The position numbers were made by a program, and so were the translations under genes. A stretch of 64,000 nucleotides of DNA from Haematobia irritans (taxonomy: Eukaryota > Arthropoda > Insecta > Diptera > Muscidae): NCBI RefSeq assembly GCF_050003625.1, contig NC_134400.1:48287096-48351095 (forward strand), read 5' to 3'. Positions 1,777 through 63,905 of this stretch are shown here, piece after piece (the first letter of the stretch is position 1; every line of letters starts with the position of its first letter). The notes beneath the pieces were generated by a model that was not told where the DNA came from, made no database searches, and worked only from the letters and a program-made list of their open reading frames with translations.

Positions 1777-2095
1777 TATACCCTCCATCATAGGATGGGG
1801 GTATATTAACTTTGTCATTCCGTTTGTAACACATCGAAATATTGCTCTAAGACCCCATAAAGTATATATATTCTGGGTCGTGGTGAAATTCTGAGTCGAT
1901 CTAAGCATGTCCGTCCGTCCGTCCGTCCGTCTGTTGAAATCACGCTAACTTCCGAACGAAACAAGCTATCGACTTGAAACTTGGCACAAGTAGTTGTTAT
2001 CGATGTAGGTCGGATGGTATTGAAAATGGGCCATATCGGTCCACTTTTACGTATAGCCCCCACATAAAGGGACCCTCAGATTTGGCTTGTGGAGC

Positions 2096-3240
2096 CTCTA
2101 ACAGAAGCATATTTCATCCGATCCGGCTGAAATTTGGTATATGGTGTTGGTATATGGTCTCTAACAACCATGCAAAAATTGGTCCAAATCGGTCAATAAT
2201 TATATATAGCCCCCATATAAACCGATCCCCAGATTTGGCTTGCGGAGCCTAAAAGAGAACAAATTTCATCCGATCCGCCTGAAATTCAGTACATGATATT
2301 GGTATATGGTCTCTAACAACCATGCAAAAATTGGTCCACATCGGTTCATAATCATATATAGCTCCCATATAAACCGATCCCCAGATTTGGCTTGCGGAGC
2401 CTCAAAAAGAAGCAAATTTTATTCGATCTGCTTGAAATTTGGTACATGGTGTTGGTATATGGTCTCTAACAATCATGCAAAAATTGGTCTACATCGGTCC
2501 ATAATTATATATAGCCCCCATATAAACCGATCCCCAGATTTGGCTTGCGGAGCCTCAAAGAGAAGCAAATTTCATCCGATCCGGCTGAAATTTGGTACAT
2601 GATGTTGGTATATGGTCTCTAACAACCATGCAAAAATTGGTCCACATCGGTCCATAATTATATATAGCCCCCATATAAACCGATCCCCAGATTTGGCTTG
2701 CGGAGCCTCAAAGAAAAGCAAATTTCATCCGATCCGGCTGAAATTTGGTATATGGTCTCTAACAACCATGCAAAAATTGGTTCACATCGGTCCATAATTA
2801 TATATAGACCCCATATAAACAGATCTCCAGATTTGGCTTGCGAAGCCTCAAAGAGAAGCAAATTGCATCCGATCCGGCTGAAATTTGGTACATGGTATTG
2901 GTATATGGTCTTTAACAACCGTGCAAAAATTGGTCCACATCGGTCTATAATTATATATAGCGCCCATATAAACCGATCCCCAGATTTGGGTTGCGGAGCC
3001 TCAAAAAGAAGCAAATTTCATCCGATCCGCCTGAAATTTGGTACATGATATTGGTATATGGTCTCTAACAACCATGCAAAAATTGGTCCACATCGGTTCA
3101 TAATTATATATAGCCCCTATATAAACCGATTCCAGATTTGGCTTGCGAAGTCTCCAAGAGAAGCAAATTTCATCCAATCCGGTTGTAATTTGGAACATGG
3201 TGTTAGTATATGATCTTTAACAACCGTGCCAGAATTGGTC
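2096..3240 (+). repeat. 153-bp tandem array of element A1
   Basis: The landmark CCGATC(C/T)CCAGATTTGG recurs at spacings of 152, 153, 153, 140 and 153 bp. Each unit contains a word of the form CGGTCCATAATTATATATAG followed by CCCCCATATAAACC. Because 153 is 51 codons, units without indels stay open in several frames and yield 50-120-codon ORFs on both strands. I regard these as by-products of unit length. Confidence 0.85.
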
Positions 3241-3299
3241 CAATCACACAAAAATTGGTCCATATTGGTTCATAATCAAGGTTGCCACTAGAGCCACAA

Positions 3300-3770
3300 A
3301 TAATCTACCAAAATTTTATTTATATAGAAAATTTTGTCAAAATGTTATTTCTATAGAAAATTTTGTCAAAATTTTATTCGGTTCATAATAAAATTTTCAT
3401 CATTGTCAAAATTTTATTTCTATAGAAAATTTTGTCAAAATTTTATTTCTATAGAAAATTTGTTCAAATTTTATTCGGTTCATAATCATGGTTGCCACTC
3501 GAGCCAAAAATAATCTACCAAGATTTTATTTCTATAGAATATTTTGTCAAAAGTTTATTTCTATAGAAAATTTTGTTAAAATTTTATTTCTGTAGAAATT
3601 TTTGTCAAAATTTTCTTTCTATAGAAAATTTTGTCAAAATTTTTATTTCTATAGAAAATTTTGTGAAAATTTTATTTCTATAGAAAATTTTGTTAGAATT
3701 TTATTTCTGTAGAAAATTTTGTTAAAATTTTATTTCTGTAGAAAATTTTGTCAAAATTTTATGTCTACTT
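3300..3770 (+). repeat. 29-bp palindromic AT-rich minisatellite in A1
   Basis: Tandem copies of a 29-bp unit centred on the dyad ATTTCTATAGAAAT with the linker TTTTGTCAAAA. The array is interrupted by GGTTCATAAT and by GGTTGCCACTCGAGCC with AATAATCTACCA, which recurs beside this array in nearly every family A copy. The strict period is best seen in the A3 copy, where CTATAG recurs every 29 bp at 17242, 17271 and 17300. Confidence 0.85.
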
Positions 3771-3958
3771 TGTCAAACTGAATTATATACGTATTGGATC
3801 GATCTTTTTTGATTTAATATATACCACGTATGGACTTACATACAATTTAGAAGATGGTGTTAGGAGGTTTTAATATACCTTGCCATCGGCAAGCGTTACC
3901 GCAACTTAGGTAATTCGATTGTGGACGGCAGTGTTTAGAAGAAGTTTCTAAGCAATCC

Positions 3959-4016
3959 ATGATGGAGGGTACATAAGCTTCGGCCTGGCCGAACTTACGG
4001 CCGTATATACTTGTTT
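3959..4016 (+). other. Tail terminus of A1: subterminal inverted repeat plus hairpins
   Basis: ATGATGGAGGGTA (3959-3971) is the reverse complement of the head tip. The 15-bp hairpin TTCGGCCTGGCCGAA (3979-3993), the palindrome ACGGCCGT (3997-4004) and the terminal TATATACTTGTTTT follow. A 3' hairpin a few bases before a T-rich end is the expected Helentron terminator of strand transfer. Confidence 0.65.
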
Positions 4017-4419
4017 TACTTTTTTTTGTCGGGGCCTCTCCTCTACCGGACTTTATTTAAAGTCTAGTGAAAAATGAAACTTCTCCGATTTACAGAGGAC
4101 GTGACAGGAGGGTATGAAATTAATATGGGGTAACTGATTTTTTTAATATTTGGACGGGGTAGGGACACCCCTTTGCAGTAGTGTTTTTTAAGAACAGAAA
4201 AAATGAACTTCTCCGATTTACTTGAAATTTACAGAGGATGTAGGGGAGGTTATGAAGTTAATATGTGGTACATAATTTTTTAACCTAACCTAACTCAGTT
4301 GTCCGATTTTTTTGCAATGAAAAAAGCTACATTTCTCCGATTTAATTTAAATTTACAGAGGTCGTGAGGGAGATTATGAAATTAAAAACAATTATGAAAT
4401 TAATGGGGTAACTAATTTT
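4017..4419 (+). repeat. Tandem repeat of about 125-128 bp, interrupted by B1
   Basis: Three units share TTCTCCGATTTA, ATTTACAGAGG and TATGAAATTAATATGGGGTAAC, with CTCCGATTT at 4083, 4211 and 4336. The first unit contains a T-run followed by AATATTTGGACGGGGT. The matching part of the last unit lies beyond element B1 at 6597-6620 (AATATTTGGGCGGGGT), so B1 inserted into this array. No coding potential is seen. Confidence 0.6.
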
Positions 4420-6595
4420 TATACCCACCACCATAGAATGGTGACGGGGGTATAATAAGTTTGTCATTCCGTTTGTAACACATCGAAGTATCGATTTCCG
4501 ACTATACAAAGTATATATATTCTTGATCAGGGAGAAATTCTAAGACGATATAACGATGTCCGTCTGTCTGTCTGTCTGTCTGTTGTAATCACGCTACAGT
4601 CTTCAATACTGAAGCACTCGTGCTGAAATTTTGCACAAGCTCGTCTTTTGTCTGCAGGCAGGTCAAGTTCGAAGATGGGCTATATCGGTCCAGGTTTTGA
4701 TATAGTCCCCATATAAACCGACCTTCCGATTTGGGGTCTTGGGCTTATAGAAATCGTAGTTTTTATCCAATTTGCCTGAAATTTGAAATCTGGAGGTATT
4801 TTATGACCATAAAGAGGTGTGCCAAAAATGGTGAGTATCGGTTCACGTTTTGGTATATCCCCCATATAGACCGATCTCCCGATTTTACTTCTTGGGCTTA
4901 TAGAAACCGCAGTTTTTATTCAATTTACCTGAAATTGGAAATCTAGAGGTATTGTAGGACCACAAATACGTGTGCCAAAAATTGTGAGTATCGGTCCATA
5001 TTTTGGTATAGCCCCCATATAGACCGATCTCCCGATTTTACTTCTTGGGCTTATAGAAAACGCAGTTTTTATTCAATTTACCTGAAATTGGAAATCTAGA
5101 GGTATTGTAGGACCACAAACACGTGTGCCAAAAATTGTGAGTATCGGTCCATATTTTGGTATAGCCCCCATATAGACCGATCTCCCGATTTTACTTCTTG
5201 GGCTTATAGAAACCGCAGTTTTTATTCAATTTACCTGAAATTGGAAATCTAGAGGTATTGTAGGACCACAAACACGAGTGCCAAAAATTGTGAGTATCGG
5301 TCCATATTTTGGTATAGCCCCCATATAGACCGATCTCCCGATTTTACTTCTTGGGCTTATAGAAACCGCAGTTTTTATTCAATTTACCTGAAATTAGAAA
5401 TCTAGAGGTATTGTAGGACCACAAATACGTGCGCCAAAAATTGTGAGTATCGGTCCATATTTTGGTATAGCCCCCATATAGACCTATCTCCCGATTTTAC
5501 TTCTTGGGCTTATAGAAACCGCAGTTTTTATTCAATTTGTCTGAAATTGGAAATCTTGAGGTATTGTAGGACCACAAATATGTGTGCCAAAAATTGTGAG
5601 TATCAGTCCATATTTTGGTATAGCCCCCATATAGACCGATCTCCCGATTTTACTTCTTGGGTTTATAGAAACCGCAGTTTTTATTCAATTTACCTGAAGT
5701 GGGAAATCTAGAGATATTACAGGACCACAAATACGTGTGCCAAAAATTGTGAGTATCGGTCCATGGTTTGGTATAGCCCCCATATAGACCGATCTCCCGA
5801 TTTGGGGTCTTGGGCTTATAGAAACCGTAGTTTTTATCCAATTTGTCTGAAATTGGAAATCTAGAGGTATTTTAGGACCATAAAGAGATGTGCCGAAAAC
5901 GGTGAGTATCGGTCCATATTTTGGTATAGCCCCCATATAGACCGATTTCCCAATTTTATTTCTTGGGCTTCTAGAATCCGAAGTTTTTATTCTATTTGCC
6001 TGAAATTGGAAATCTAGAGGTATTTTCGGGTCACAAAGAGGTGTGCCGAAAATGGTGAGTATCGGTCCATATTTTAGTATAGCCCCCATAAAAACGATCT
6101 CCCGATTTAACTCCTTGGGTTTCTAGAAACCGTAGTTTTTATCTGATATGCCTGAAATTGTAAATATTCTGGTATTTTAGGCTCACAAAAACGTGTATCG
6201 GATTAAGTTTTTATCGGTCCATTTGGTAATGCCTCCATATAGACCGACTTCACTTCTTGAGGGCATAGAAGGCGCACTGATCATGAAAATTGCTTGAAAC
6301 TCAATGTAAAATTTCCAGATTTTACTTCTACAGATTTAAGATTTCAAATCAAGACGTTATTGTATAATTTTCTTGCACACTTACAAGAGATGTTAATGAT
6401 TCCTCTAAACCTTAAACAAAAACGGTTCTTATAAATCCAGAATCTGATATAGTCCTCATAGGTGAAATCTTTAAATTTATCTTCGGGTAGTGTCCTCAAG
6501 CCCTCCTGAAATTTCAAAGGAAACCCTAATATTTGGTTCATGGTGGTGGGTATTTAAGATTCGGCCCGGCCGAACTTACTGCTGTATATACTTGT
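4420..6595 (+). mobile_element. Helentron/DINE-1-like element B1, complete
   Basis: Family B has the same plan as A but different sequence. The head starts TATACCCACCACCATAGAAT and has a GTCTGTCT run. Positions 4509-4528 read AAGTATATATATTCTTGATC, a word I remember from Drosophila DINE-1/INE-1. The body is an array of exactly 153-bp units. The tail ends with the hairpin TTCGGCCCGGCCGAA and CTTGTTT. The head repeat ATACCCACCACCAT (4421-4434) is perfectly complementary to 6540-6553. There is no 29-bp array. ORFs of up to 134 codons within the array are explained by the 51-codon period. Confidence 0.8.
4690..6110 (+). repeat. Exact 153-bp tandem array of element B1
   Basis: The landmark GACCGATCTCCCGATTTT (variants included) lies at 5022, 5175, 5328, 5481, 5634, 5787 and 5940, so six successive spacings are exactly 153 bp. 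Flanking units are more diverged, which suggests that the middle units were homogenised or amplified more recently. Confidence 0.9.
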
Positions 6596-6929
6596 TTAAT
6601 ATTTGGGCGGGGTGAGGAGATCCTCTTTTTCACCAAAGTTCTTTGTTTTGCTTCAAATTTTCAAAGAAGGTGGCGTCTAGAGAAATATTCGCTACTTTAT
6701 TTTTCGAAGCAAGAGTTTTACCCTAATTTGCTTCAAATTTTGCACAAGGAGTACAATTGATAGTGTCGACTACTGTCACAAATTTTGTTGAACTCGGCAC
6801 AGATTTAGATATAGCTTTATTCTATTCAACCGTCGAACTGAACGGACGTGTTTTTTAATAGCGGATTATTTCATCGTAATAAGTACTTATTACGAATTTC
6901 ACGTGTGGTGGAAAATTAAACCACCATGC
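6596..6929 (+). repeat. Resumption of the 125-bp repeat, then a family C unit fragment
   Basis: 6597-6650 continues the repeat interrupted by B1. 6712-6815 resembles one diverged family C unit: GAGTTTTACCCTAATTTGCT, then AATTTTGCACAAGGAGTAC, then AGATTTAGATATAGC. The remaining bases up to the hAT-like element show nothing recognisable. Confidence 0.45.
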
Positions 6930-10905: not shown

Positions 10906-11146
10906 TTGTTTTTTTTTTTTTTTTTTTGGTACGAGGACGAACGCTATTGAATTTAAAAAAAACGGATCAAATTTAGATATAGCTCCCATATATATGTATC
11001 GCCCGATTTCGATAAATGGGGTCAGATTGCGATCATTTACTAATATTTACTAATATTACCGATCGGCGTCAAATTTGCCACAAAGAATTAGATATAGCTC
11101 CCATATACAGTGCTGTTCAAAACATTTGCAACCACATTCAATGTTA
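10906..11146 (+). repeat. Poly-T run and two family C/D unit fragments
   Basis: A T-run at about 10908-10927 ends the LINE relic. Then CAAATTTAGATATAGCTCCC (about 10963) and AGATATAGCTCCCATATA (about 11092) mark two diverged units of the C/D type. 11108-11146 (CAGTGCTGTTCAAAACATTT onward) resembles the terminal sequence of a Tc1-like element but has no partner I can place. Confidence 0.45.
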
Positions 11147-13409
11147 ACAAGTATATACGGCCGTAAGTTCGGCCAGCTATGTACCCTCCATCATGGATTG
11201 CGTAGAAACTTCATCTAAACATTGCCATCCACAATCGAATTACTTAAGTTGCGGTAACGCTTGCCGATGGCAAGGTATCTTAAAACCTCCTAACACCATC
11301 TTCTAAATTGTATGTAAGTCCATACGTGGTATATATTAAATCAAAAAAGATCGATCCAATACGTATATAATTCAGTTTGACAAAGTAGACATAAAATGTT
11401 GACAAAATTTTCTACAGAAATAAAATTTTAACAAAATTTTCTATAGAAATAAAATTTTCACACAATTTTCTGTAGAAATAAAAATTATCTACCAACATTT
11501 TATTTCTAAAGAAAATTTTGTCAAAATTTTATTTCTATAGAAAATTTTGTCAAAATTTTATTTCTAGAGAAAATTTTGTTAAAATTTTATTCGGTTCATA
11601 ATAAAATTTTCATCATTGTCAAAATTTTATTTCTATATAAATTTTTGTCAAAATTTTGACAAAAATTTCTACAGAAATAAAATTTTAACAAAATTTTCTA
11701 TAGAAATTAACTTTTGACAAAATTTTCTATAGAAATAAAATCTTGGTAGATTATTTTTGGCTCGAGTGGCAACCATGATTATGAACCGAATAAAATTTGA
11801 ACAAAATTTTCTATAGAAATACAATTTTGACAAAATTTTCTATAGAAATAAAATTTTGACAAAATTCTCTATAGAAATAAAATTTTGACAATGATGAAAG
11901 TTTTATTATGAACCGAATAAAATTTTAACAAAATTTTCTCTAGAAATAAAATTTTGACAAAATTTTCTATAGAAATAAAATTTTGACAAAATTTTCTATA
12001 GAAATAAAATGTTGGTAGATTATTTTTGACTCTAGTGGCAACCATGATTATGAACCGATATGGACCAATTTTTGTGTGATTGGACCAATATTTGTATGGT
12101 TGTTAGCGACCATATACTACACCACGTTCCTAATTTGAACCGGATCGGATGAATTTTGCTCCTCCAAGAGGATCCGGAGGTTAAATCTGGAGAATGTTTT
12201 ATATGGCGGCTATATATAGTTATGGACCGATATGGACCAATTCTGGCACGGTTGTTAAAGATCATATACTAACACCATGTTCCAAATTACAACCGGATTG
12301 GATGAAATTTGCTTCTCTTGGAGACCTCGCAAGCCAAATCTGGGGATCGGTTTATATGGGGCTATATATAATTATGAACCGATGTGGACCAATTTTTGCA
12401 TGGTTGTTAGAGACCATATACCAATATCATGTACGAAATTTCAGGCGGATCGGATGAAATTTGTTTCTCTTTGAGGCTCCGCAACCAAAATCTGGGGATC
12501 GGTTTATATGGGCGCTATATATAATTATGGACCGATGTGGATCAATTTTTGCACGGTTGTTAGAGACCATATACCAATACCATGTACCATATATCAGCCG
12601 GATCGGATGAAATTTGCTCCTCTTTGAGGCTTCGCAAGCCAAATCTGGAGATCGGTTTATATGGGGTCTATATATAATTATGTACCGATGTGGACCAATT
12701 TTTGCATGGTTATTAGAGACCATATACCAACACCATGTACCAAATTTCAGCCGGATCGGATGAAATATGCTTCTGTTAGAGGCTCCACAAGCCAAATCTG
12801 GGGATCGGTTTATATGGGGGCTATATATAATTATGGACCGATGTGGACCAATTTTTGCATGGTTGTTAGAGCCCATATACCAACACCATATACCAAATTT
12901 CAGCCGGATCGGATGAAATATGCTTCTCTTTTAGGCTCCGCAAGCCAAATCTGGGGATCGGTTTATATGGGGGCTATATATAATTATGGACCGATGTGGA
13001 CCAATTTTTGCATGGTTGTTAGAGACCATATACATACACCATATACCAAATTTCAGCCGGATCGGATGAAATATGCTTCTGTTAGAGGCTCCACAAGCCA
13101 AATCTGAGGGTCCCTTTATATGGGGGCTATACGTAAAAGTGGACCGATATGGCCCATTTGCAATACCATCCGACCTACATCGAAAACAACTACTTGTGCC
13201 AAGTTTCAAGTCGATAGCTTGTTTCGTTCGGAAGTTAGCGTGATTTCAACAGACGGACGGACGGACGGACGGACGGACATGCTTAGATCGACTCAGAATT
13301 TCACCACGACCCAGAATATATATACTTTATGGGGTCTTAGAGCAATATTTCGATGTGTTACAAACGGAATGACAAAGTTAATATACCCCCATCCTATGAT
13401 GGAGGGTAT
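11147..13409 (-). mobile_element. Helentron/DINE-1-like element A2, complete
   Basis: Family A copy with its tail at the left (ACAAGTATATACGGCCGTAA) and its head at the right (CCTATGATGGAGGGTAT). Order along the element: head with (GTCC)n, six to seven 153-bp units (12180-13110), a 29-bp array (about 11395-12015), tail. The tail hairpin is damaged: TTCGGCCAGC joins directly to TATGTACCC, so half the palindrome is missing. The subterminal repeats still match (CCATCAT / ATGATGG). Confidence 0.8.
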
Positions 13410-13503
13410 GAAAATAAATGGAACTAACGGTCAAGATTTTTTGATAATTTATATTTTTTTTTTAAATTAGAGTTTTCGCCTGTTCATTTGCAACTAATAT
13501 TAA

Positions 13504-14699: not shown

Positions 14700-14782
14700 A
14701 TACCCCACAAACAATGTCTACTAATCCAGGGTTAGGGTATGATATAGTCGGCCCCGCCCGACTTTCTGTTTTACTCACTTGT
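14700..14782 (+). mobile_element. Tail fragment of a family E Helentron-like element
   Basis: AGGGTATGATATAGTCGGCC followed by CCGCCCGACTTTCTG and TTTTACTCACTTGT is a GGGTAT subterminal repeat, a GTCGG/CCGAC hairpin and a CTTGT end. Matching minus-strand tails lie at 20564 and 39314. Element A3 begins at the next base. Confidence 0.55.
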
Positions 14783-17665
14783 TATACCCTCCATCATAGG
14801 ATGGGGGTATATTAACTTTGTCATTCCGTTTGTAACACATCGAAATATTGCTCTAAGACCCCATAAAGTATATATTCTGGGTCGTGGTGAAATTCTGAGT
14901 CGATCTAAGCATGTCCGTCCGTCCGTCCGTCCGTCTGTTGAAATCACGCTAACTTCCGAACGAAACAAGCTATCGACTTGAAACTTGGCACAAGTAGTTG
15001 TTATCGATGTAGGTCGGATGGTATTGAAAATGGGCCATATCGGTCCACTTTTACGTATAGCCCCCATATAAAGGGACCCTCAGATTTGGCTTGTAGAGCC
15101 TCTAACAGAAGCATATTTCATCCGATCCGGCTGAAATTTGGTATATGGTGTTGGTATATGGTCTCTAACAACCATGCGAAAATTGGTCCACATCGGTCCA
15201 TAATTATATATAGCTCCCATATAAACCGATCCCCAGATTTGTCTTGCGGAGCCTAAAAGAGAAGCAAATTTCATCCGATACGGCTAAAATTTGGTACATG
15301 ATGTTGGTATATGGTTTCTAACAACCATGCGAAAATTGGTCCATATCGGTCCACTTTTACGTATAGCCCCCATATAAACGGACCCCCAAATTTGGCTTGC
15401 GATTGCTCTAAAAGAAGCAAATTTCATCCGATCAGGCTGAAATTTCGTACATGGTGTTGGTATATGGTCTCTAACAACCATGCGAAAATTGGTCCATATC
15501 GGTCCACTCTTACGTATAGCCCCCATATAAACGGACCCCCAAATTTGGCTTGCGATTGCTCTAAGAGAAGCAAATTTCACCCGATCCGGCTGAAATTTGG
15601 TACATGCTGTTATTATATGGTCTCTACCAACCATGCACAAATTGGTCCACATCGGTCCATAATTATATATAGCCCTCATATAAACCGATCCCCAGATTTG
15701 GCTTGCGGAGCCTAAAAGAGAAGCAAATTTCATCCGATACGGCTAAAATTTGGTACGTGATGTTGGTATATGGTCTCTAACAACCATGCAAAAATTGGTC
15801 CATATCGGTCCATATCGGTCCTTAATTATATATAGCCCCCATATAAACCGATCCCCAGATTTGGCTTGTAGAGCCTCTAACAGAAGCATATTTCATCCGA
15901 TCCGGCTGAAATTTGGTATGTGGTGTTGGTATATGTTCTCTACCAACCATGCAAAAATTGGTCCACATCGGCCCATAATTATATATAGCCCCCATATAAA
16001 CCGATCCCCAGATTTGGCTTGCGTAGCCTAAAAGAGAAGCCAATTTCATCCGATCCGGCTGAAATTTGGTACATGATGTTGGTATATGGTCTTTAACAAC
16101 CATGCAAAAATTGGTCCATATCGGTCTTTAATTATATATAGCCCCCATATAAACCGATCCCCAGATTTGGCTAGTGGAGCCTCTAAGAGAAGCATATTTC
16201 ATCCGATCCGGCTGAAATTTGGTACATTGTGTTGGTATATGGTCTCTAACAACCGTGCAAAAATTGGTTCATATCGGTCCATAATTATATATAGCGCCCA
16301 TATAAACCGATCCCTAGATTTGGGTTGTGGAGCCTCTAAGATAAGCATATTTCATCCGATCCGGCTGAAATTTGGTACATAATGTTGGTATATGGTATCT
16401 AACAACCGTGCAAAAATTGGTCCACATCGGTCCATAATTATATATAGCCCCCATATAAACCGATCTCCAGATTTGGCTTGCAAAGCCTCAAAGAGAAGCA
16501 AATTGCATCCGATCCGGCTGAAATTTGGTACATGGTATTGGTATATGGTCTATAACAACCATACAAAAATTGGTCCTTATCGGTCCATAATTATATAAAG
16601 CGCCCATATAAAACGATCCCCAGATTTGGGTTGCGGAGCCTCAAAGAGAAGCAAATTTCATCCGATCCGCCTGAAATTTGGTACATGATATTGGTATATG
16701 GTCTCTAACAACCATGCAAAAATTGGTCCACATCGGTTCATAATTATATATAGCCCCCATATAAAACGATCCCCAGATTTGGCTTGCGAAGTCTCCAAGA
16801 GAAGCAAATTTCATCCAATCCGGTTGTAATTTGGAACATGGTGTTAGTATATGATCTTTAACAACCGTGCCAGAATTGGTCCATATCGGTCCATAATTAT
16901 ATATAGCCCCCATATAAAACGTTCTCCAGATTTGACCTCCGGAGCCTCTTGGAGGTGCAAAATTCATCCGATCCGGTTCAAATTAAGAACGTGGTGTTAG
17001 TATATGGTCGCTAACAACCATACCAAAATTGGTCCAATCACACAAAAATTGGTCCATATCGGTCCATAATCATGGTTGCCACTAGAGCCAAAAATAATCT
17101 ACCAAAATTTTTTTCTATAGAAAATGTTGTCAAAATTTTATTTCTATAGAAAATTTTGTCAAAATTTTATTTCTAGAGAAAATTTTGTTAAAATATTATT
17201 CGGTTCATAATAAAATTTTCATCATTGTCAAAATTTTATTTCTATAGAAAATTTTGTCAAAATTTTATTTCTATAGAAAATTTTGTCAAAATTTTATTTC
17301 TATAGAAAATTTTGTTCAAATTTTATTCGGTTCATAATCATGGTTGCCACTCGAGCCAAAAAAAATCTTCCAAGATTTTATTTCTATAGAAAATTTTGTC
17401 AAAAGTTTATTTCTATAGAAAATTTTGTTAAAATTTTATTTCTGTAGAAATTTTTGTCAAAATTTTCTTTCTATAGATAATTTTGTCATACAATTTAGAA
17501 GATGGTGTTAGGATGTTATAAGATGCCTTGCCATCGGCAAGCGTTACCGCAACTTAAGTAATTCGATTGTGGATGGCAGTGTTTAGAAGAAGTTTCTACG
17601 CAATCCATGATGGAGGGTACATAAGCTTCGGCCTGGCCGAACTTACGGCCGTATATACTTGTTTT
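14783..17665 (+). mobile_element. Helentron/DINE-1-like element A3, complete
   Basis: At 2.9 kb the longest family A copy without nested insertions. The head (TATACCCTCCATCAT) and (GTCC)n run are followed by about 13 units near 153 bp (15080-17030), a 29-bp array (17090-17485) and a tail that lacks the segment normally before ATACAATTTAGAAGATGG. It ends in the hairpin and CTTGTTTTTT. Some units carry GCGATTGCTC instead of GCGGAGCCTC, so unit subtypes exist inside one array. The head abuts the CTTGT end of a family E tail. Confidence 0.82.
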
Positions 17666-21817: not shown

Positions 21818-24210
21818 AACAAGTATATACGGCCGTAAGTTCGGCCAGGCCGAATCTTATGTACCCTCCACCATGGATTGCGTAGGAACTTCTACTAAAG
21901 GCTGTCATCCACAATCGAATTACTTGGGTTGCGATAACACTTGCCGATGGCAAGGTATCGTAAAACTTTTTAACACTGTCTTCTAAATTGTAAGTTAGCC
22001 CATACGGGGTATATATTAAACAAAACAAGTATATACGGCCGTAAGTTCGGCCAGGCCGAATCTTATGTACCCTCCACCATGGATTGCGTAGGAACTTCTA
22101 CTAAAGGCTGTCATCCACAATCGAAATACTTGGGTTGCGATAACACTTGCCGATGGCAAGGTATAGTAAAACTTTTTAACACTGTCTTCTAAATTGTAAG
22201 TTAGCCCATACGGGGTATATATTAAACAAAAAAAAGGCCGATTAAATACGTATATAATCTAGTTTGACAAAATTTTCTATAGAAATAAAATTTTGACAAA
22301 ATTTTCTATAGAAATGAAACCTTGACAAAATTTTCTATAGAATTAAAATTTTGACAAAATTTTCTATAGAAATAAAAATTTGACAAAATTTTCTGTAGAA
22401 ATAAAAACTTGACAAAATTTTCTATAGAAATAAAATGTTGACAAAGTTTTCTATGGAAGTAAAATGTTGACAAAATTTTCTATAGCAATACAATTTTGAC
22501 AAAAATTTCTATAGAAATAAAATTTTGACAAAATTTTGTATAGAAATAAAATTTTGACAAAATTTTGTATAGAAATAAAATGTTGACAAAATTTTCTACA
22601 GAAATAAATTTTTTACAAAATTTTCTATAGAAATAAAATTTTGACAAACATTTCTATAGAAATAAACTTTTGACGAAACTTTCTATAGAAATGAAATTTT
22701 AACAAAACTTTCTATAGTAATAAAATTTGACAAAATTTTCTATGGAAATAAAGTTTTGGTAGATTACAAAATTTTCTATAGAAATAAAATTTTGACAAAA
22801 TTTTCTATGGAAATAAAATTTTGACAAACATTTGTATAGAAATAAAGTTTTGACAAAACTTTCTATAGAAATGAAATTTTGACAAGACTTTCTATAGTAA
22901 TAAAATTTGACAAAATTATCTATGGAAATAAAGTTTTGGTAGATTATTTTTGGCGATATGGACCAATTTTTGTGTAATAAGTCATCGGCTATATATAACT
23001 AAAGACCGATATGGACCAATTTTTACATGGCTGTTAGAGGCCATATATTGACAAAATGTACCGAATTTCAACCGTATCGGATGACTTTTGCTCCTCCAAG
23101 AGGTTCCGGACGTCAAATCTGGGGACGGTTTATATGGGAACTATATATAATTATGGACCGATATGGACCAATTTTTGCATGGTTGTATACTAACACCATG
23201 TACCAAATTTCAACTGGATCGGATGAATTTTGCTCTTCCAAGAGGCTCCGGAGGTCAAATCTGGGGATCGGTTTATATGGGGGCTCTATATAATTATGGA
23301 CCGATATGGACCAATTTTTGCATGGTTGTTAAAAACCGTATACTAAGACCACGTACTAAATTTCAACCGGATCGGATGAATTTTGCTCCTCCAAGAGGCT
23401 CCGGTGGTCAAATCTGGGGATCGGTTTATATGGGGGCTATACATAATTATGGACCGATATGGACCAATTTTTGCATGGTTGTTAGAGACCATATACTAAC
23501 ATCATGTACCAAATTTCAATCGGATCGGATGAATTTTGCCCCTCCCAGAGGCTCCGGAGGTCAAATCTGGGGATCGGTTTATATGGGGGCTATATATAAT
23601 TATGGACCGATATGGACCAATTTTTGCATGGTTGTTAGAGACCATATACTAACATCATGTACCAAATTTCAATCGGATCGGATGAATTTTGCCCCTCCAA
23701 GAGGCTCCGGAGGTCAAATCTGGGGATCGGTTTATATGGGGGCTATATATAATTATGGACCGATATGGACCAATTTTTGCATGGTTGTTAGAGACCGTAT
23801 ACTAAGACCACGTACCAAATTTCAACCGGATCGGATGAATTTTGCTGCTCCGGGAGGCTCCCCAAGCCAAATTTGGGGATCGGTTTATATGGGGGCTATA
23901 CGTAAACGTGGTCCGATATGGCCCATTTGCAATACCATCCGACCTACATCAATAACAACTACTTGTGCCAAGTTTCAAGTCGATAGCTTGTTTCGTTCGG
24001 AAGTTAGCGTGATTTCCACAGACGGACGGACAGCCGGACAGACGGACAGACGGACGGACAGACGGACGGACGGACGGACATGCTTAGATCGACTCAGAAT
24101 TTCACCACGACCCAGAATATATATACTTTATGGGGTCTTAGAGCAATATTTCGATGTGTTACAAACGGAATGACAAAGTTAATATACCCCCATCCTATGG
24201 TGGAGGGTAT
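21818..24210 (-). mobile_element. Helentron/DINE-1-like element A4, with duplicated tail
   Basis: Two nearly identical tails of about 206 bp lie in direct tandem (21818-22023, 22024-22230). A 29-bp array (22262-22950), about six 153-bp units (22990-23890) and the head with a long (GACG/GACA)n run follow, ending CCTATGGTGGAGGGTAT. Subterminal repeats match in the CCACCAT/ATGGTGG form. The units stay in register for over 1 kb, leaving one open frame of 336 codons (23163-24173, plus strand) made of a 51-residue repeat. I treat this as fortuitous. Confidence 0.8.
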
Positions 24211-24443
24211 AAAAAAAAATAACTTCGATTGTTCGAAATATTTCAAATAAATTGATATGAGCATTAAAATGGATCGATCCAGCCCATCTGCCAGTCTAAC
24301 ATTCTAGGAAACATGAAAAGATAGCCGTAATTGGAAGTTGATTTTCATTTACAATCATTGATCGAATGAATAACGCAATGAAAACTAATTTGCGTAAAAA
24401 CTTGCTTAGTTACAAAAATGTGAAGTGTTTTTAAAAATTTGGT

Positions 24444-26614: not shown

Positions 26615-28104
26615 TATACCCTTCACCACTACTGTGGTACAGGGTATAATAAGTTTGTGAATTTGTATGTAACGCCAAGAAATAGTGGTCATAGACCCAT
26701 CTTTTAGTATACCGATCGGCTTTAGTATACCGATCGGCTTAAATTCTGAGTCGATTTAGCGATGTCCGTCTGTCTGTCTGTCCGTCCGTCTGTCTGTATA
26801 TGTAATTTTGTGCACAAAGTACAGCTCGCAATTTAAGTCCGATCGTCCTCAATTTTGGCACAGGGCCGTTTCTTGGGACAGAGACAATCGCTATTGGTTT
26901 TGGAAAAAATCGGTTCAGATTTAGATATAACTGCCATATATATTTATCCCCGATTTGGTCATAGTTAACGTGTTTATCAACCGATTTTCTTGAAATACCG
27001 TACATCCAAATATTTTATGAATCTCGCAAATCTTGCAAAATATCAGCCAAATCGGTTTAGATTTAGATATAGCTCCCATATATATCTTTCGTCCGATTTA
27101 GACTCATATGACCACAGAGGCCAAAGTTTACTACCGATCTTCGTGAAATTTTGCACAGAGGGTAGAATTGACATTCTACCTATGCTTGGTAAATTTGATT
27201 GAAATCGGTTCAAATTTAGATATAGCTCCCATATATATCTTTCGTCCGATTTGAACTTATATGGCCACAAAAGCCAGAATTTTGCCATGATTTGCTTCAA
27301 ATTTTGCACAAGGGGTACGTTTGATAGTATCGTTAAGTGTTTGTTAAAATCGGTTCAGATTTAGATATAGCTCACATATATATCTTTCGCCCGATTTGGA
27401 CTTATATGGTCTCAAAAGCCAGAGTTTTACCCTGACTTACTTCAAATTTTGCACAAGCGGTACTTTTAACGATACTATTGAATGTGCCAAATATGGTCAA
27501 AATCGATTCAGATTTAGATATAGCTCCCATATATATCTTTCGTCCGATTTGAACTTATATGACCTTAAAATCTAGGGTTTTGCCGTGATTTGCTTCAAAC
27601 TTCGCACAAGGAGTACGTTTGGTAGTATCGGTAATTATGCCAAATTTGGTTGAAATCGGTTCAGATTTAGATATGGCTCCCATATATATCTTCCGTCCGA
27701 TTTGCACTCATATGACCATGGTGCTAAAGTTATACTGTCATTTACGTGAAATTTTGCAGAGGTAGCAGAATTATTATTCTAACTATACATGTCAAATTTA
27801 GTCAAAATCGGTTCAGATTATATATAGCTCCCATATATACGTACACCAGAGTTGGGGAAATATGTTAGACTGTTACACATTTTAGACCCATTTTCAATGG
27901 AAGTGTCCTCCAATTAACTGGATAGCGTAAGGCGATTTAAATTTTAATTCTAGAGATTTTGTAGAAGTAAAAAAATTGTCCCCTTTATGTTATATAGCTT
28001 CCAGCAAATGTGAAGTAGTTGAGATGGTAACACAAATTTTGGCCTACATAGGGGTGAAGGGTATAATATATTGGGCACCGCCCGACTTTAGACTTTACTT
28101 ACTT
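26615..28104 (+). mobile_element. Helentron/DINE-1-like element C1, complete
   Basis: Family C copy. The head is TATACCCTTCACCACTACTG with a (GTCT/GTCC)n run at 26764-26797. Seven units near 153 bp follow, with TAGATATAGCTCCCATATAT landmarks at 27071, 27224, 27369, 27522, 27675 and 27826. The tail has GGGCACCGCCC and CTTTACTTAC. Head TATACCCTTCACC (26615-26627) is perfectly complementary to 28053-28065. There is no 29-bp array and no coding capacity. Confidence 0.78.
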
Positions 28105-33334: not shown

Positions 33335-33338
33335 TTTT

Positions 33339-38552: not shown

Positions 38553-38597
38553 TTGGTGGAGGGTACATAAGACCGAAGCTTATGTACCCTCCACCAA
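38553..38597. repeat. Perfect 19-bp hairpin from inverted family A tail ends
   Basis: TTGGTGGAGGGTACATAAG (38553-38571) and its exact complement (38579-38597) flank a 7-base loop ACCGAAG. Both arms are family A subterminal repeats, so two tail tips are joined in inverted orientation. Confidence 0.7.
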
Positions 38598-39313: not shown

Positions 39314-39880
39314 CAAGTAAGTAAGTCTGAAGTCGTGCGGGTCCGACTATATTATACTCTTTTTGTTTGTTTTTTTTTTCACCACTATGTAGACCATAAT
39401 TTTTGATACTATCTCAACTCCTTCATTTGTTGGGTGATATATATAGGCGAGATAAGTATTTTGGAGCTATATCTGACTCTGATTTTATCTCAACCAAATG
39501 TGGCTTACTTGACGATACCATAAATTGTACTCTTTGTGCAAAACGAGAAGCAAATCAAGGTGAAACTCTGGCCTCTGAGGCCAATTATATACTTATCGGG
39601 CTCACGATTCATTGACTCACCATTGAGTTATATGGTACAATGGACTGAATAGACTAAGTGAGTCTGAAACTAAATCGGGCTGCCACTTTAACCTAAACTT
39701 ATATGGTACGTTTGAGATTTACTTTTGATAATGAGAGCTAATAAGAGAATCTTCATCGAGGAGAATTATTTGGTAGTCGTCTATGGATGCAGGGACCATC
39801 CTGGAATTGTATGCTTAATTTACCTGGGAGTCCTGATTGAAAATGTGAGCAGTATTAATTTCAAGAACGTTATCTCTTTT
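39314..39880 (-). mobile_element. Family E Helentron-like fragment
   Basis: It starts with the tail AACAAGTAAGTAAGTCTGAA and GTCGTGCGGGTCCGAC, and continues through TTTTGATACTATCTCAACTC. No head is seen. A 60-bp SINE tail is inserted at 39639. The right limit is uncertain because element A8 begins at 39890. Confidence 0.45.
39639..39698 (+). mobile_element. 60-bp SINE tail insertion with 11-bp TSD
   Basis: TTATATGGTAC lies at 39628-39638 and again at 39699-39709. Between them is only the SINE 3' end (AATGGACTGAATAGACTAAG to TTTAACCTAAAC). Its 5' end nearly coincides with that of the copy at 18553. Confidence 0.8.
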
Positions 39881-39889
39881 ATACCCTCC

Positions 39890-40633
39890 ACCATAGAATG
39901 GGGGGGAGGGGGATATTAACTTTGTCATTCCGTTTGTAACACATCGAAATATTGCTCTAAGACCCTATAAAGTACATATGTTATATTCTGGATCGTGCTG
40001 AAATTCTGAGTCGATCTAAGCATGTCCGTCCGTCCGTGTTCATCCGATCCGGCTGAAATTTGGTACATGGTGTTGGTATATGGTCTCTAACATCCGTGTC
40101 AGAATTGGTCCATATCGGTCCATAATTATACATAGCCCCCATATATGTTAAACCATTCTCCAGATTTGACCTCCGGAGCCTCTTGGAGGAGCAAAATTCA
40201 TCCGATCCGGTTAAAATTTGGAACGTGGTGTTAGTATATGGGCGCTAACAACCATACCAAAATTGGTCCATATCGGTCTATAGTTATATATAGCCGATCC
40301 CCAATCATACAAAAATTGGTCCATATCGGTTCATAATCATGGTTGCCACTCGAGCCAAAAATAATCTACCAAAATTTTATTTCTATAGAAAATGTTGTCA
40401 AAATTTTATTTCTATAGAAAATTTTGTTAATTTAATATATACCACGTAAGGACTTACTTGCAATTTAGAAGACGGTGTTAGGAGGTTTTAAGATACCTTG
40501 CCATCGGCAAGCGTTCCCGCAACCCAAGTAATTTGATTGTGGATGGCAGTGTTTAGAAGAAGTTTCTACGCAATCCATGGTGAAGGGTACATAAGCTTCG
40601 GCCTGGCCGAACTTACGGCCGTATATACTTGTT
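39890..40633 (+). mobile_element. Helentron/DINE-1-like element A8, compact
   Basis: A 744-bp family A copy with both ends. The head is TATACCCTCCACCATAGAAT with a short GTCC run; an internal deletion at GTCCGTGTTCATCC leads to under two 153-bp units, about two 29-bp units and a full tail ending CTTCGGCCTGGCCGAAC and CTTGTT. Tail subterminal repeat ATGGTGAAGGGTA has one mismatch to the head. Confidence 0.78.
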
Positions 40634-40858: not shown

Positions 40859-42336
40859 TGGCCGAATCTTAAATACCCACTACCATGAATCAAATATCAT
40901 AGTTTCCTTTGAAAATTTCAGGGGGGTTTGATGACAGATATTCTCCCAAGTACACTTCCCGAATATACATTTAAAGATTTTACCTATGAAGACTATATCA
41001 GATTCTGGATTTGTAAGAACCATTTTTGTTTGAGTTTTAGAAAATTCATTAACATCTCTTGTAAGTAAGGAAATGATGAAATAACGCCTTGATTTGAAAT
41101 CTAAAATCTGCAGATTTTTACCCAAATTATTTAAATGATTACGAGAAGTAAAATCCGTAAATTTTACATTCAGTTTCAGGCAATTTTCATGATCAGTGCG
41201 CCTTTGATTCTAGTTATGCGCCTCAAGAAGTGAAATCGGCCTATATGGAGGCCTTACCGATAAAAACTAAATCCTATACCCTATACTAAAACATGGACCG
41301 ATACTCACCGTTTTCGGCACACCTCTTTATGGTCCTAAAATACTTCCAGATTTAAAATTTCAAGCAAATTGGATAAAAACTACGGTTTCTACAATCCCAA
41401 AACAATAAAATCATTTCTTGCACACCTATTTATAGTCCTAAAAACCTATTCAATTTCAGGCAAATTGAACAACAACTGCGCTTTCTACAAGCCCAAAAAG
41501 GAAAGTCGGGAGATCGGTCTAAATGGGGGCAAACATGGACCGGTACTCACCATTTTTGGCACACCTCTTTGTGGTCGTAAAATACCTCTAGATTTCCAAT
41601 GTCAGACAAATTGGATAAAACCTACGCATTCTATAAGTCCAAGAAGTAAATTCGGGAGATCGGTCTATATGGAGACTATACCAAAACATGAACCGATACT
41701 CACCATTTTTGGCACACCTCTTTATGGTTCTTAAATAATTCTATATTTCTAATTTCAGGGAAATTGGATAAAAACTACGGTTTCTATAAGCCCAAGAAAT
41801 AAAATCGGGAGATCGATCTATATGGGGGCTATACCAAAACTTGGACCGATACTCCCCATTTTTGGCACACCACTTTTTGGTCATAAAGTACCTTTAGATT
41901 TCTAATTTCTGGCAAATTGGATAAAAACTACGGATTCTAGAAGAGCAAGAAATAAAATCGGGAGATTGGTTTCTATGGGAGCTATACCAAAACATGGGCC
42001 GATACTCACTTTTTTGGCACACCTCTTTGTGGTCCTAAAATACCTCCAGATTTCCAATTTCAGGCAAATTGGATAGAAACTACGGTTTCTATAAGCCCAG
42101 GACCTCAAAGCAATCGTGCTGAAATTTGCAAAATTTCAGCGATTGCTTCATTATTGAAGACTGTAGCGTGATTACAACAGACAGACAGCCAAACGGACAT
42201 GGCTATATCGTCTTAGAATTTCTCCCTGAACAAGAATATATATACTTTATATAGTCGGAAATCGATATTTCGATGTGTTACAAACGGAATGACAAACTTA
42301 TTAAACCCCCGTCACCATTCTATGGTGGTGGGTATA
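40859..42336 (-). mobile_element. Helentron/DINE-1-like element B2
   Basis: Second family B copy. The tail at left (GGCCGAATCTTAAATACCCA) has lost the outer hairpin half. Diverged 153-bp units follow, then the head ending TTCTATGGTGGTGGGTATA, with only a remnant of the GACA run (42180-42200). The subterminal repeat has one mismatch (ACCCACTACCAT). It is older than B1. Confidence 0.72.
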
Positions 42337-46203: not shown

Positions 46204-46960
46204 TTATACCCTAAACCACATAGTGGTCAGGGTATAATAAGTTCGATCTGTCAAAAAATGTGCCTACACACAAAAAAAATTTTCTGATTCAATCACGAAA
46301 TTAATTGATCCAATTAATTTTTAATTGAAATGTCTTCAATCACAGAAATGATAGTATCAATTAAAAAATTAATTGAAGGTCAATTAAAAAGTTAATTGAT
46401 TCAATTAAAAAAGTAATTAATAATAATATTTTTGTGATTGATTTTTGTTTCAATTAAAAAATTTGTTGAATCAATTAATTTTTTAATTGAATATTTTTTA
46501 AAACTCAATTAAAATTTTAATTGGAAAAATTTTCGTGAAATTTTTTTGTGTGTACCAGAAATATTGATTTTAGACCCCATAAAATATATACCGGTAGACT
46601 CAGAATCACCTCCTGAGTCGATCTAGCGCTTGGTGTCCGTCCGTCTGTACATGTATTTGTTGTTCACAGGATTCCGATCGCAATTATTAACCGATTTTGA
46701 TGAAATTGGGTACAGCAAGTTTTTTGGGCATATATCGGCCGATTTTCCCAAATTTGGCCATAAAAACCTAAGCGACTTAGTCAAACTTGGCTTACTCTAA
46801 TCTTTTATGGTACTGACAATATGTGCTAAAAATAATCGAAATCGGTTCAGATTTAGATATAGCTACCATATATATGTATCGCCCGATTTTGCCAAATTTG
46901 GCCGTAAAACTCTTATTTATCAACCAATTGGAATTCCAATTCCATACGTTTTATAATTTC
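46204..46960 (+). mobile_element. Family D Helentron-like head, interrupted by a MITE
   Basis: TATACCCTAAACCACATAGT with the inverted GTGGTCAGGGTATA forms a head hairpin. After the MITE at 46267 come GACCCCATAAAATATATACC, GAGTCGATCTAGCGCTTGG and GTCCGTCCGTCTG, then one unit. The F4 element follows. Confidence 0.65.
46267..46552. mobile_element. 286-bp TA-flanked MITE
   Basis: The ends CACACAAAAAAAATTTTC and GAAATTTTTTTGTGTG are inverted, with TA on both sides (46265-46266, 46553-46554). The interior consists of repeated TTAATTGA / TCAATTAA words in both orientations. It splits the family D head between its hairpin and its GACCCC motif. Confidence 0.8.
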
Positions 46961-56279: not shown

Positions 56280-57767
56280 AACAAGTATACACGGCCGTAA
56301 GTTCGGCCAGACCGAAGCTTATGTACCCTCCACCATGGATTGCGTAGCAACTTCTACTGAAGCCGATGGCAAGGTATCTCAAAACTTCCTAACACCGTAA
56401 TATATACCACATAGTCCATACGTGGTACATATAAAACTAAAAAAGGCAGATTAAATACGTATATAATTAAGTTTAAAGTTTCTATAGAAATAAAATTTAA
56501 AAAAAATAAAATTTTGATAACATTTTCTATATAAGTAAAATTTTGACAAAATTTACTATAGAAATAAAATTTGGAAAAAATTTTGTATAGAAATAAAATT
56601 TTGACAAAATTTTCTATAGAAATAACATTTTGTCAATGTTTTCTATAAAAATAACATTTTGGTAGATTATTTTTGGCTCGAGTGGCAACCATGATTATGA
56701 ACCGATTGTATGATTGGGGATCGGCTATATATAACTATAGACCGATATGGACCAATTTTGGCATTGTTATTAGCGGCCTTATACTAACAACATGTTCCAA
56801 ATTTCAACCGGATCGGATGAATTTTGCTCCTCCAAGAGGCTCCGGAGGACAAATCTGGGGACCGATTTATATGGGGGCTATATATAATTATGGACCGATA
56901 TGGACCAATTCTTGCATGGTTGTTAGAGACCATATACTAACACCACGTACCAAATTTCAACCGGATCGGATGAATTTTGCTCCTCTAAGAGGCTCCGGAG
57001 GTCAAATCTGGGGATCGGCTTACATGGGAGCTATATATAATTATTGGTCGATGTGGACCAATTTTTGCATGGTCATTAGAGAACATATACCAACATCATG
57101 TACCAAATTTCAGCTAGATCGGATGAAATTTGCTTCTCTTAGAGGCTCCGCAAGCCAAATCGGGGGATCGGTTTATATGGGGGCTATATATAATTATTGA
57201 CCGATGTGGACCAATTTTTGCGTGGTTGTTAGAGACCATATACTAACACCATGTACCAAATTTCATCCGGATCGGATGAAATTTGCTTCTCTTAGAGCAA
57301 TCGCAAGCCAAATTTGGGGGCCGTTTATATGGGGGCTATACGTAAAAGTGAGCCGATATGGTTATTGCATGGTTGTTAGAGACTATATACTAACACCATG
57401 TACCAAATTTCAGCCGGATCGGATGAAATTTGCTTCTTTTAGAGCAATCGCAAGCCAAATTTGGGGGTCCGTTTATATTGGGGCTATACGTAAAAGTGGA
57501 CCGATATGGCCCATTTGCAATACCATCCGACCTACATCAATAACAACTACTTGTGCCAAGTTGCAAGTCGATAGCTTGTTTCGTTCGGAAGTTAGCGTGA
57601 TTTCAACAGACGAACGGACGGACGGACGGACATGCTCAGATCGACTCAGAATTTCACCACGACCCAAAATATATATACTTTATGGGGTCTTAGAGCAATA
57701 TTTCGATGTGTTACAGACGGAATGACAAAGTCAATATACATACCCCCATCCTATGGTGGAGGGTATA
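56280..57767 (-). mobile_element. Helentron/DINE-1-like element A10, complete
   Basis: The tail (AACAAGTATACACGGCCGTA) is shortened by deletion after CTTCTACTGAAG. A 29-bp array (56470-56665), about six units (56700-57500) and a head ending CCTATGGTGGAGGGTATA follow. Subterminal repeats match (CCACCAT/ATGGTGG). Two open frames of about 175 codons run through the units on the plus strand. Confidence 0.82.
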
Positions 57768-58210: not shown

Positions 58211-58244
58211 AGAAAATTTTTCCAAAAACGACCAAACAAAAATA

Positions 58245-58630: not shown

Positions 58631-58639
58631 TTTTTTGCT

Positions 58640-58870: not shown

Positions 58871-58929
58871 CATCTCGTAGTGTGAAACTGGGAATTCCCA
58901 AAGGTTGGGTGGCAGATTTATAATAGAGC

Positions 58930-60298: not shown

Positions 60299-60300
60299 TA

Positions 60301-62496: not shown

Positions 62497-62570
62497 CGGT
62501 CGGAGCAGGGATTGAACCCACGACCCTTTGCATGCAAGGCAGACATGCTAACCACTGCTCCACGTGGCAA
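62497..62570 (-). repeat. tRNA-like module in P2, minus strand
   Basis: The minus strand has TGGAGCAGTGGTTAGCATG (A box) and GGTTCAATCCCTGC (B box, one change). A poly-A tract lies just outside it (62467-62491). It matches the module at 19846-19918. Confidence 0.6.
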
Positions 62571-62683
62571 ACAAATGTATGTTTCTGTTAAATAATGTTA
62601 TGTTTGCATGGGCTCGTGGGCGCTGCAAACTATGCTATATAAATGTAACTTAAAACGATAATTATCTACTGGTGACTATAACA

Positions 62684-62754
62684 GCTACGTAGCCCAGTGG
62701 ATAGTGTGTTGGCTTACAAACTGTATGGTCCTCGGTTCGATTCTCCGTGCAGGC
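62684..62754 (+). repeat. tRNA-like module in P2, plus strand
   Basis: GCTACGTAGCCCAGTGGATA (A box) and CGGTTCGATTCTCCGTGC (B box GGTTCGATTCT) span 71 nt, the length of a tRNA. It diverges from the module at 62497 with a 113-bp spacer. Ends pair only partly, so it is probably a tRNA-derived repeat. Confidence 0.6.
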
Positions 62755-63055
62755 GAAAGGTAAAATTTATAAAAGTGAATAATTTCTTCAACATTATTTG
62801 TATTACAGAGAAAGGTGCCAATAACTAAAAAATTTCGTGGAAGTGAAAATTACGAGTATGTTAGGGAATGAGCACAATCGTGTTTGGGAAAAATTCTTCC
62901 AAGCACATAATATTTTTGGCTCAAAATGCTTCCAAACATATAATATGTTCACATAAAACAAACATATTAATGTTTCGGCAGTATGCAATAATATATGTGC
63001 TTCCTGCAAAATATGTTTGGAACATATGTTAAAGAAGCGATTTTTTTTGAGGGTG

Positions 63056-63739
63056 CACTGTTTTTCATATGTTCCGATATAAACAAAATGTGTTTCGGGC
63101 ACAATTTTTAAACACAATATATTTAAGTGCAAACATGTAATGTTCATAAACTAACAATAAATGTTTGGGACACATATGTTAATATGTTAGAATATATTAT
63201 GTTTGGGGCATGAATGTTTAATAAAAATAATATGTGTGAATGTCAAATTTATATATTTATATATATAAATTTACAAATTTCGAGTAAACATATATATGTT
63301 GTGATATGTTATTCAGAGAGCGACAGAGAGAGAGAGTATAGATAATGAAATAGAGATGGAAACCGGGAGGGTTGACGAAAGATATCAACATAACACAGCG
63401 AGAGAATGAAAAGGAATAATATCTGTGAAGCCGCTTGTATGTTGTTTCGGAAAACTGCTTTATAATAAGGCCAAACATTTTATATGCTTAAGTCTAAATA
63501 TTATTTAATTTGAATATTAGAATGAGTATTCGGAGTAAAGAGATTAGACATTCGGAACCAAGAGAAGAATAGACATTTGAAAAAAACAGCATGTGTTTTC
63601 GCCTTGAGAGCAGCATTTTATGTATGTGTGGACATGTGTTTTGTTTATCATTTTGGCATTATGGGCAAAATTTTTTTCTTGGTTCGTTAAAATAAATCGG
63701 AACGTACGTAAGTCAAAATATTCAGGCAAAGGAAATTAA
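63056..63739 (+). mobile_element. P3: truncated copy abutting P2
   Basis: It starts CACTGTTTTTCATATGTTCC (13 bp missing after CACTG) immediately at the end of P2. It aligns with P1/P2 up to CTTGGTTCGTTAAAATAAAT and is cut by element A11. Confidence 0.65.
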
Positions 63740-63905
63740 AACAAGTATACACGGCCGTAAGTTCGGCCAGGCCGAAGCTTATGTACCCTCCATCATGGAT
63801 TGCGTAGAAACTTCTACTGAAGACTGTCATCCACAATCGAATTACTTGGGTTGCGGTAACACTTGCCGATGGCAAGGTATCTTAAAACTTCCTAACACCG
63901 TAATA
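63740..63905 (-). mobile_element. Helentron/DINE-1-like element A11, tail only
   Basis: AACAAGTATACACGGCCGTA, the full hairpin and GTACCCTCCATCATGG are present. The tail is interrupted at CACCGTAATA by another element; the rest lies beyond the window. Confidence 0.75.

Follow-up and report, generated by a model that had tools for sequence, protein, structure and literature searches.

The 64,000-nucleotide stretch of Haematobia irritans DNA considered here (NCBI RefSeq assembly GCF_050003625.1, contig NC_134400.1, positions 48,287,096 to 48,351,095 of the forward strand; the "window") contains many copies of short, repeat-filled elements, which are HINE/DINE-1-like rolling-circle transposons, that is, non-autonomous Helentrons. 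The paired repeats at their ends are the published 5′ and 3′ subterminal inverted repeats (subTIRs), also known as asymmetric terminal inverted repeats (ATIRs), and they remain complementary to each other while differing in sequence from family to family. The window presents this pairing, two alternative structures of the 5′ repeat along with the energies predicted for them, and a lineage that appears to have changed at both ends. Taken as a whole, we consider it reasonably probable (roughly 0.6) that these elements are HINEs in which subTIR pairing serves as a strand-exchange switch ending rolling-circle transfer, with selection restoring the pairing whenever it is disturbed.

Matching Ends in Ten Copies

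Ten copies with both ends were compared, named by the position of their head start, with (-) denoting the reverse strand. The head repeat is able to pair with a site immediately inside the 3′ hairpin, and in eight of the ten copies the match is perfect over the 13–14 bp of the respective family: TACCCTCCATCAT is found at both ends of copies 1777, 13410(-), 14783, and 30994, TACCCTCCACCAT at both ends of 24211(-) and 57767(-), ATACCCACCACCAT at both ends of 4420, and TATACCCTTCACC at both ends of 26615. One mismatch each is present in copy 39880 (TACCCTCCACCAT at the head, TACCCTTCACCAT at the tail) and in copy 42336(-) (ATACCCACCACCAT and ATACCCACTACCAT, respectively). All families found share the constant half of the repeat, TATACCC, and each has a variable half of its own. 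Copy 24211 has two tails with the same subTIR, at 22024 and at 21818, of which the first was used. Kept out of the ten were the mini-copy 33041–33130, the decayed pair 39312(-)/38924 (a 12/13 match over positions 3–15, tail hairpin lost), the palindromic tails 38567/38583, the tails 35089, 51296, and 63782, for which no head was found in the window, and the heads 46205 and 59391, for which no tail was found. All pairing and founder counts refer to this one window.

Over positions 3–15, i.e., 13 fixed columns in ten copies, 127 of 130 head/tail positions are identical, the third miss being column 14 of copy 26615, just beyond its own 13-bp repeat. Matched differences between the alleles occupy columns 8, 9, 12, and 15. 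Beyond the repeat, head and tail agree in only 0–3 of ten copies at columns 16, 18, 19, 22, and 24, and still in 7–8 of ten at columns 17, 20, 21, and 23; the edge of the repeat is clear, not absolute.

The alleles that a preliminary description of this DNA had listed by family are all present in the sequence. Its statement that every copy with both ends pairs holds for the ten copies and fails for the mini-copy, which possesses a head and a tail hairpin without a 3′ subTIR. The span between head and tail, put there at 1.5–2.9 kb, measures 712–2839 bases across the ten copies, and single mismatches, ascribed there to the oldest copies, occur, within the ten, in the two named above.

Statistical Weight of the Agreement

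When whole copies were shuffled, 127 of 130 was reached in 1 of 20,000 shuffles; as a probability, this figure was rejected because it counts relatives many times. At the level of alleles (A CATCAT, A CACCAT, B, and C, single mismatches aside, with copies 1777, 24211, 4420, and 26615 chosen by us as representatives), 1 of 24 permutations does as well as the actual pairing. The four CATCAT heads are identical or show one difference over the 94–96 positions compared after the subTIR, and the four CATCAT pairs therefore count as one founder. With only four alleles and 24 permutations, the independent evidence within the window is thus small, and the covariation, being founder-limited there, was rejected as strong independent evidence. 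A search for 13-mers without a fixed position was likewise rejected as a test: when 400 13-mers were drawn at random from the window, 20 had a perfect inverted counterpart 100–5000 bases downstream and 41 had one with at most one mismatch, chance matches being common because the window is full of inverted copies. The meaning of the subTIR matches comes from their fixed position beside the 3′ hairpin.

These figures lend themselves to an explanation by shared descent only, according to which a few founders had matched ends by chance and their copies inherited them, the agreement being uninformative on present selection. There are only four alleles in ten complete copies, the four CATCAT pairs descend from near-identical heads, and the permutation result is a mere 1 of 24; covariation fully explained by a few founders, which the preliminary description had named as the outcome that would speak against function, is thus nearly what the window holds. 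The head of copy 24211, however, goes beyond founders, since one of its 2 differences from head 1777 over 221 positions lies in the subTIR, at a base where it agrees with its own, diverged tail; random placement of two substitutions would give such a subTIR base in about 1 of 330 cases, a value computed after seeing the data. Differing subTIRs with matching ends have also been described from several Drosophila species (PMC2374699). Shared descent as the sole cause is, in our view, unlikely.

A Lineage with Both Ends Apparently Changed

The two differences between head 24211 and the CATCAT head 1777, microsatellite length differences aside, are position 12 of the subTIR, where 24211 has C, and one base at the microsatellite edge. 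Against heads 13410, 14783, and 30994, there are 3 of 225, 2 of 219, and 5 of 241 differences, with position 12 included each time. The tail of 24211 has C, too, and differs from the four CATCAT tails at 17–19 of 115 positions (96–98 of 115 matching, about 15% different). In turn, tail 40591 is identical to the CATCAT tail 33294 at 110 of 115 positions, yet it has C at position 12, as does its own head. Given C-bearing near relatives at each end, both ends of the CATCAT burst lineage therefore appear to have changed from C to T; the direction of this change is read from the nearest relatives, and the argument covers one lineage and a handful of relatives in one window. What looks like a second change to T is seen in the tail subTIR 63784–63796, which has T on a background 93.0% identical to the C tail 35089 and 82.6–86.1% identical to the other T tails.

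End exchange would fit copy 24211, given a head near-identical to those of copies with about 15% different tails; a more slowly evolving head block would fit as well.

The double change could also be the product of templated conversion, in which the ends pair in transposition, the mismatch in the duplex is repaired, and a mutation is copied across without selection. It would leave the near-identical, C-keeping relative that is found at each end, and head/tail agreement would drop beyond the repeat, as it does. Still, this is a single event which selection for compensation explains as well, and the two mismatched copies indicate that conversion, if any, misses some copies, so that we regard templated conversion as highly improbable. 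That heteroduplex repair, rather than selection alone, keeps the ends identical and writes a new allele across in one step is very unlikely, too; if such copying were true, new end specificity could arise without an inactive intermediate.

Alternative Folds of the 5′ Repeat

Energies were predicted from DNA parameters for isolated short strands under default conditions. A 5′ hairpin is predicted in all ten copies at −6.1 to −10.0 kcal/mol, a value reached by 0–3 of 200 shuffles per copy, and the predicted fold is the family hairpin in nine of them. The base of this hairpin is formed by TATACCC and its partner GGGTATA, and its top by the variable half; the arm matches the element's own variable half in families B and C as well as in the lone head 46205. 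The cognate head:tail duplex is predicted at −17.4 to −19.8 kcal/mol in the eight matched copies and at −11.9 and −15.0 kcal/mol in the two mismatched ones, and in all ten copies it is stronger than the 5′ hairpin. When each allele is represented by a single copy, all 12 non-cognate combinations (−7.9 to −15.0 kcal/mol) are weaker than the four cognate ones (−17.4 to −19.8 kcal/mol).

Proposed Role of the Pairing

The preferred mechanism follows the proposal of Bao and Jurka (PMC3627910). The 5′ repeat would have two pairing options, either its own neighbour, giving the short 5′ hairpin, or the 3′ repeat, giving a longer and stronger duplex. Rolling-circle transfer would displace a single strand; upon reaching the 3′ end, the 3′ repeat would invade the 5′ hairpin and pair with the 5′ repeat. 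This end-to-end pairing would join the ends and, together with the 3′ hairpin, mark the end of transfer. A change at one end would lower movement until the other end matches, so that families could diverge while keeping their pairing. Formation of the duplex in vivo, its action at termination, and its upkeep by selection are inferred.

The preliminary description had suggested that the ends are brought together, perhaps as a duplex or by a dimeric Rep protein, an interpretation that is partly supported. Functional coupling of the ends is backed by the pairing, by the cognate energy preference, and by one double-change lineage, and a duplex and a dimeric Rep look alike in these data. Indeed, if both repeats were double-stranded sites for one Rep/helicase dimer bridging the ends, each end being tuned separately and no single-strand pairing taking place, the dimer would bridge two copies of one site, and nearly the same pattern would be predicted. 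A common constant half next to a family-specific variable half is expected of a core site plus a specificity half, and the inverted placement suits a symmetric dimer. However, the 5′ repeat is also part of a predicted hairpin with its neighbouring arm (families A, B, C, and the lone head 46205), whereas a mere binding site has no need of a hairpin. HUH-type Rep proteins are expected to act on single strands; such a Rep would read the ends as complements and not as the same sequence. We hold bridging of double-stranded sites to be rather unlikely.

Several points weigh against a pairing switch under selection. The best fold of head 39880 is a pairing other than the family hairpin, and this head pairs better with the tails of 24211 and 57767 (−17.1 kcal/mol) than with its own (−11.9 kcal/mol). 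The CACCAT copies 24211 and 57767 have a weaker 5′ hairpin (−6.4 and −6.1 kcal/mol); thus, the 5′ inverted-repeat arm, as the third partner, has not kept step with head and tail, which agree with each other, and a possible order of change is the arm first, then head and tail. The allele-level test comprises four alleles only (1 of 24). The mini-copy 33041–33130 sits cleanly in its target without a 3′ subTIR, which would be dispensable if this copy moved in its present form; it may have lost the 3′ subTIR after insertion. In the blowfly Calliphora, Helitron3_Cv with its 40 copies is described as being without a 3′ subTIR (PMC3630058), so pairing is not always needed, and subTIRs with one mismatch predominate in most oyster HINEs (PMC7492417).

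Element Identity and Anatomy

The elements are assigned to the HINEs because they combine subTIRs and a 5′ inverted repeat with a GTCY microsatellite and central tandem repeats, carry a 3′ stem-loop, and use a T-rich target that is not duplicated. Families A and B start with TATACCC (one CATACCC) and a head hairpin, continue with a conserved block containing a GTCC-type microsatellite (GTCC or GTCY runs in the heads), a run of 153-bp central tandem units, and a tail block with the 3′ hairpin, and end near CTTGTT; family C has its own head and tail on the same plan, as far as the ends compared are concerned. HINE subTIRs are 11–15 bp long and lie 0–4 nucleotides from the 5′ end and tens of bp from the 3′ end, in line with the 13–14 bp found here and with copy 1777, where the 3′ subTIR ends 44 bp ahead of position 4015, near the terminus. 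The family 5′ hairpin is recognized in nine of ten copies, being partial in 42336, and head 39880 folds differently; the exact pattern TATACCC...GGGTATA occurs at 8 places in the window vs. 0 in 100 shuffles.

A palindrome downstream of the 3′ subTIR and near the 3′ end is found in families A, B, and C, the hairpin having decayed in copies 13410 and 57767 and being cut off in 42336. Family A tails (3979–4002 and equivalents) harbour two overlapping, mutually exclusive hairpins, TTCGGCC...GGCCGAA and GGCCGAACTTACGGCC, the second of which is predicted to form in copies 13410 and 57767.

A single insertion shows integration into a T run with no target-site duplication: the flanks of the mini-copy are identical to the uninterrupted site, with six T's, of three related copies (3811+, 11342-, 51458-). 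Two other similar sites listed (40429+, 35248-) differ in sequence.

Canonical Helitrons (Helitron1; 5′-TC, CTRR-3′, no inverted repeats, A/T target) are ruled out by the TATACCC...CTTGTT ends, the subTIRs, and the T-run target. Cut-and-paste miniature inverted-repeat transposable elements (MITEs), defined by terminal inverted repeats and a target-site duplication, are rejected because of the internal position of the 3′ repeat and the single empty site without duplication, within the limit that a TT duplication with other boundaries is conceivable in a T run.

Among 10 chosen frames (out of 70 stop-to-stop frames of at least 85 codons), Pfam recognized no Rep or helicase; one frame matched an endonuclease-reverse transcriptase family, and one had a weak match below the cut-off. 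An autonomous partner, expected to encode Rep, helicase, and endonuclease between the same ends, was thus not seen in the frames scanned. The endonuclease-reverse transcriptase fragment (PF14529; 10138–10464) is the remnant of a mobile gene. Frame 9134–9868, without a Pfam match above its cut-off, presumably resembles a Tc1/mariner transposase.

Outside the window, neither the head and tail patterns nor the DINE-1-like core had a match in viral contigs. The tail hairpin recurred at 7 places in genome contigs (records titled bacterial) and a 16-base piece of the head at 23 places in viral contigs; these 30 loci were dropped as chance because the exact head hairpin pattern is in none of them.

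Copies and Neighbouring Features

The features are collected in Table 1. No matching tail was found for the lone head 46205 within 5 kb downstream.

Table 1. Helentron-related features of the window (positions within the 64,000 nucleotides).
Feature	Position	Strand	Details
HINE copy, family A (CATCAT)	1777..4016	+	5′ subTIR 1779-1791 within 5′ hairpin 1777-1805; 3′ subTIR 3959-3971; 3′ hairpin 3979-3993
HINE copy, family B	4420..6596	+	5′ subTIR 4421-4434; 5′ hairpin 4420-4454; 3′ subTIR 6540-6553, followed by 3′ hairpin
HINE copy, family A (CATCAT)	11146..13410	-	5′ subTIR 13396-13408; 3′ subTIR 11182-11194; 3′ hairpin partly deleted
HINE copy, family A (CATCAT)	14783..17663	+	5′ subTIR 14785-14797; 3′ subTIR 17607-17619
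HINE copy, family A (CACCAT)	22024..24211	-	5′ subTIR 24197-24209; 3′ subTIR 22068-22080; second tail with same subTIR 21818-21874
HINE copy, family C	26615..28100 (3′ end approximate)	+	5′ subTIR 26615-26627 in hairpin 26615-26648; 3′ subTIR 28053-28065, followed by short 3′ hairpin
HINE copy, family A (CATCAT)	30994..33336	+	5′ subTIR 30996-31008; 3′ subTIR 33280-33292; contains nested mini-copy
Mini-copy, about 90 bp	33041..33130	+	5′ hairpin joined to 3′ hairpin and terminus; no 3′ subTIR; within T run of host copy
HINE copy, family A, one mismatch	39880..40633	+	5′ subTIR 39882-39894 (TACCCTCCACCAT); 3′ subTIR 40577-40589 (TACCCTTCACCAT, other strand)
HINE copy, family B, one mismatch	40872..42336	-	5′ subTIR 42322-42335; 3′ subTIR 40873-40886; 3′ hairpin cut off
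Head hairpin, further family (TATACCCTAAACCAC...GTGGTCAGGGTATA)	46205..46236	+	Lone head
HINE copy, family A (CACCAT)	56280..57767	-	5′ subTIR 57753-57765; 3′ subTIR 56324-56336
Tail only, head beyond window	63740..63905	-	3′ subTIR 63784-63796, CATCAT allele; tail background nearest a CACCAT tail

In two places (14729–14783 and 39312–39370), the CTTGT end of a tail of a different type is immediately followed by a family A head, which would fit tandem insertion of elements at each other's 3′ ends. Downstream of head 24211, two tails lie about 206 bp apart (21818–22080); tail 22024 is joined to the block B sequence of the other tail at the T-rich site TTTAATATATACC, the same one that the mini-copy 33041 occupies. 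In the interval 50140–51296, about 1.15 kb separates a 3′ hairpin from its own subTIR, with imperfect inverted repeats (TACACGCACAGAAAAAACATG and TACACGCAGAGAAGAAACATG) at the borders; probably, another transposon inserted between hairpin and subTIR. At 38550–38600, two 3′ subTIRs point towards each other with a short spacer between them (GGTGGAGGGTACATAAG...CTTATGTACCCTCCACC), so that the tail sequence makes up a near-perfect palindrome.

Relation to Known Elements and Significance

Pairing that persists despite divergence is a rediscovery, from raw sequence, of a hallmark described since 2008; the idea is not new. Yang and Barbash (PMC2374699) reported in that year ends that differ in sequence between species or types while matching, with one 3′ mismatch, in D. 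mojavensis, and took the conservation of structure despite sequence change to mean function. A paper of 2013 (PMC3627910) described compensatory changes and proposed that the 5′ hairpin is opened by pairing between the two ends, and Thomas and colleagues define Helentron families by subTIR identity (PMC4067079).

With the HINE/DINE-1 elements of Drosophila, mite, and oyster (PMC2374699, PMC4067079, PMC7492417), the elements of the window have in common subTIRs of 11–15 bp, one close to the 5′ end and the other inside the 3′ hairpin, as well as central tandem repeats, the 3′ stem-loop, a T-rich target, and differing subTIRs with pairing kept, whereas the subTIR sequences and the 153-bp central repeat are different. 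Helitron2 elements with ATIRs (PMC3627910; Fusarium FoHeli, PMC5148889) share the placement of the ATIRs, with the 5′ one in a 5′ hairpin and the 3′ one immediately ahead of the 3′ hairpin, along with compensatory changes and the proposed pairing of the ATIRs at the end of replication. Helitron2, however, is defined by RepHel protein phylogeny, while the present elements are likened to it by their ends alone, with no RepHel among the 10 frames scanned. Helitron2_Cv and Helitron3_Cv of the blowfly Calliphora vicina, which are DINE1-like and from a calyptrate (PMC3630058), possess a 5′ subTIR, a 5′ partial inverted repeat, a GTCY repeat, and a 3′ hairpin as well, but are shorter (consensus 395–750 bp); this comparison is by description only. 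The similar anatomy, together with the DINE-1-like ends, suggests a calyptrate fly as the source of the window.

Among the open-licence papers listed in the literature searches, no phylogeny-corrected covariation test was found. Counting across the whole genome would make the published pairing model statistically testable, and elements with and without the 3′ subTIR would reveal whether the ends have to pair at all. For the Helentrons, the window confirms a hallmark of the group and adds one recent lineage whose two ends have apparently both changed while the sequence around them stayed nearly the same.

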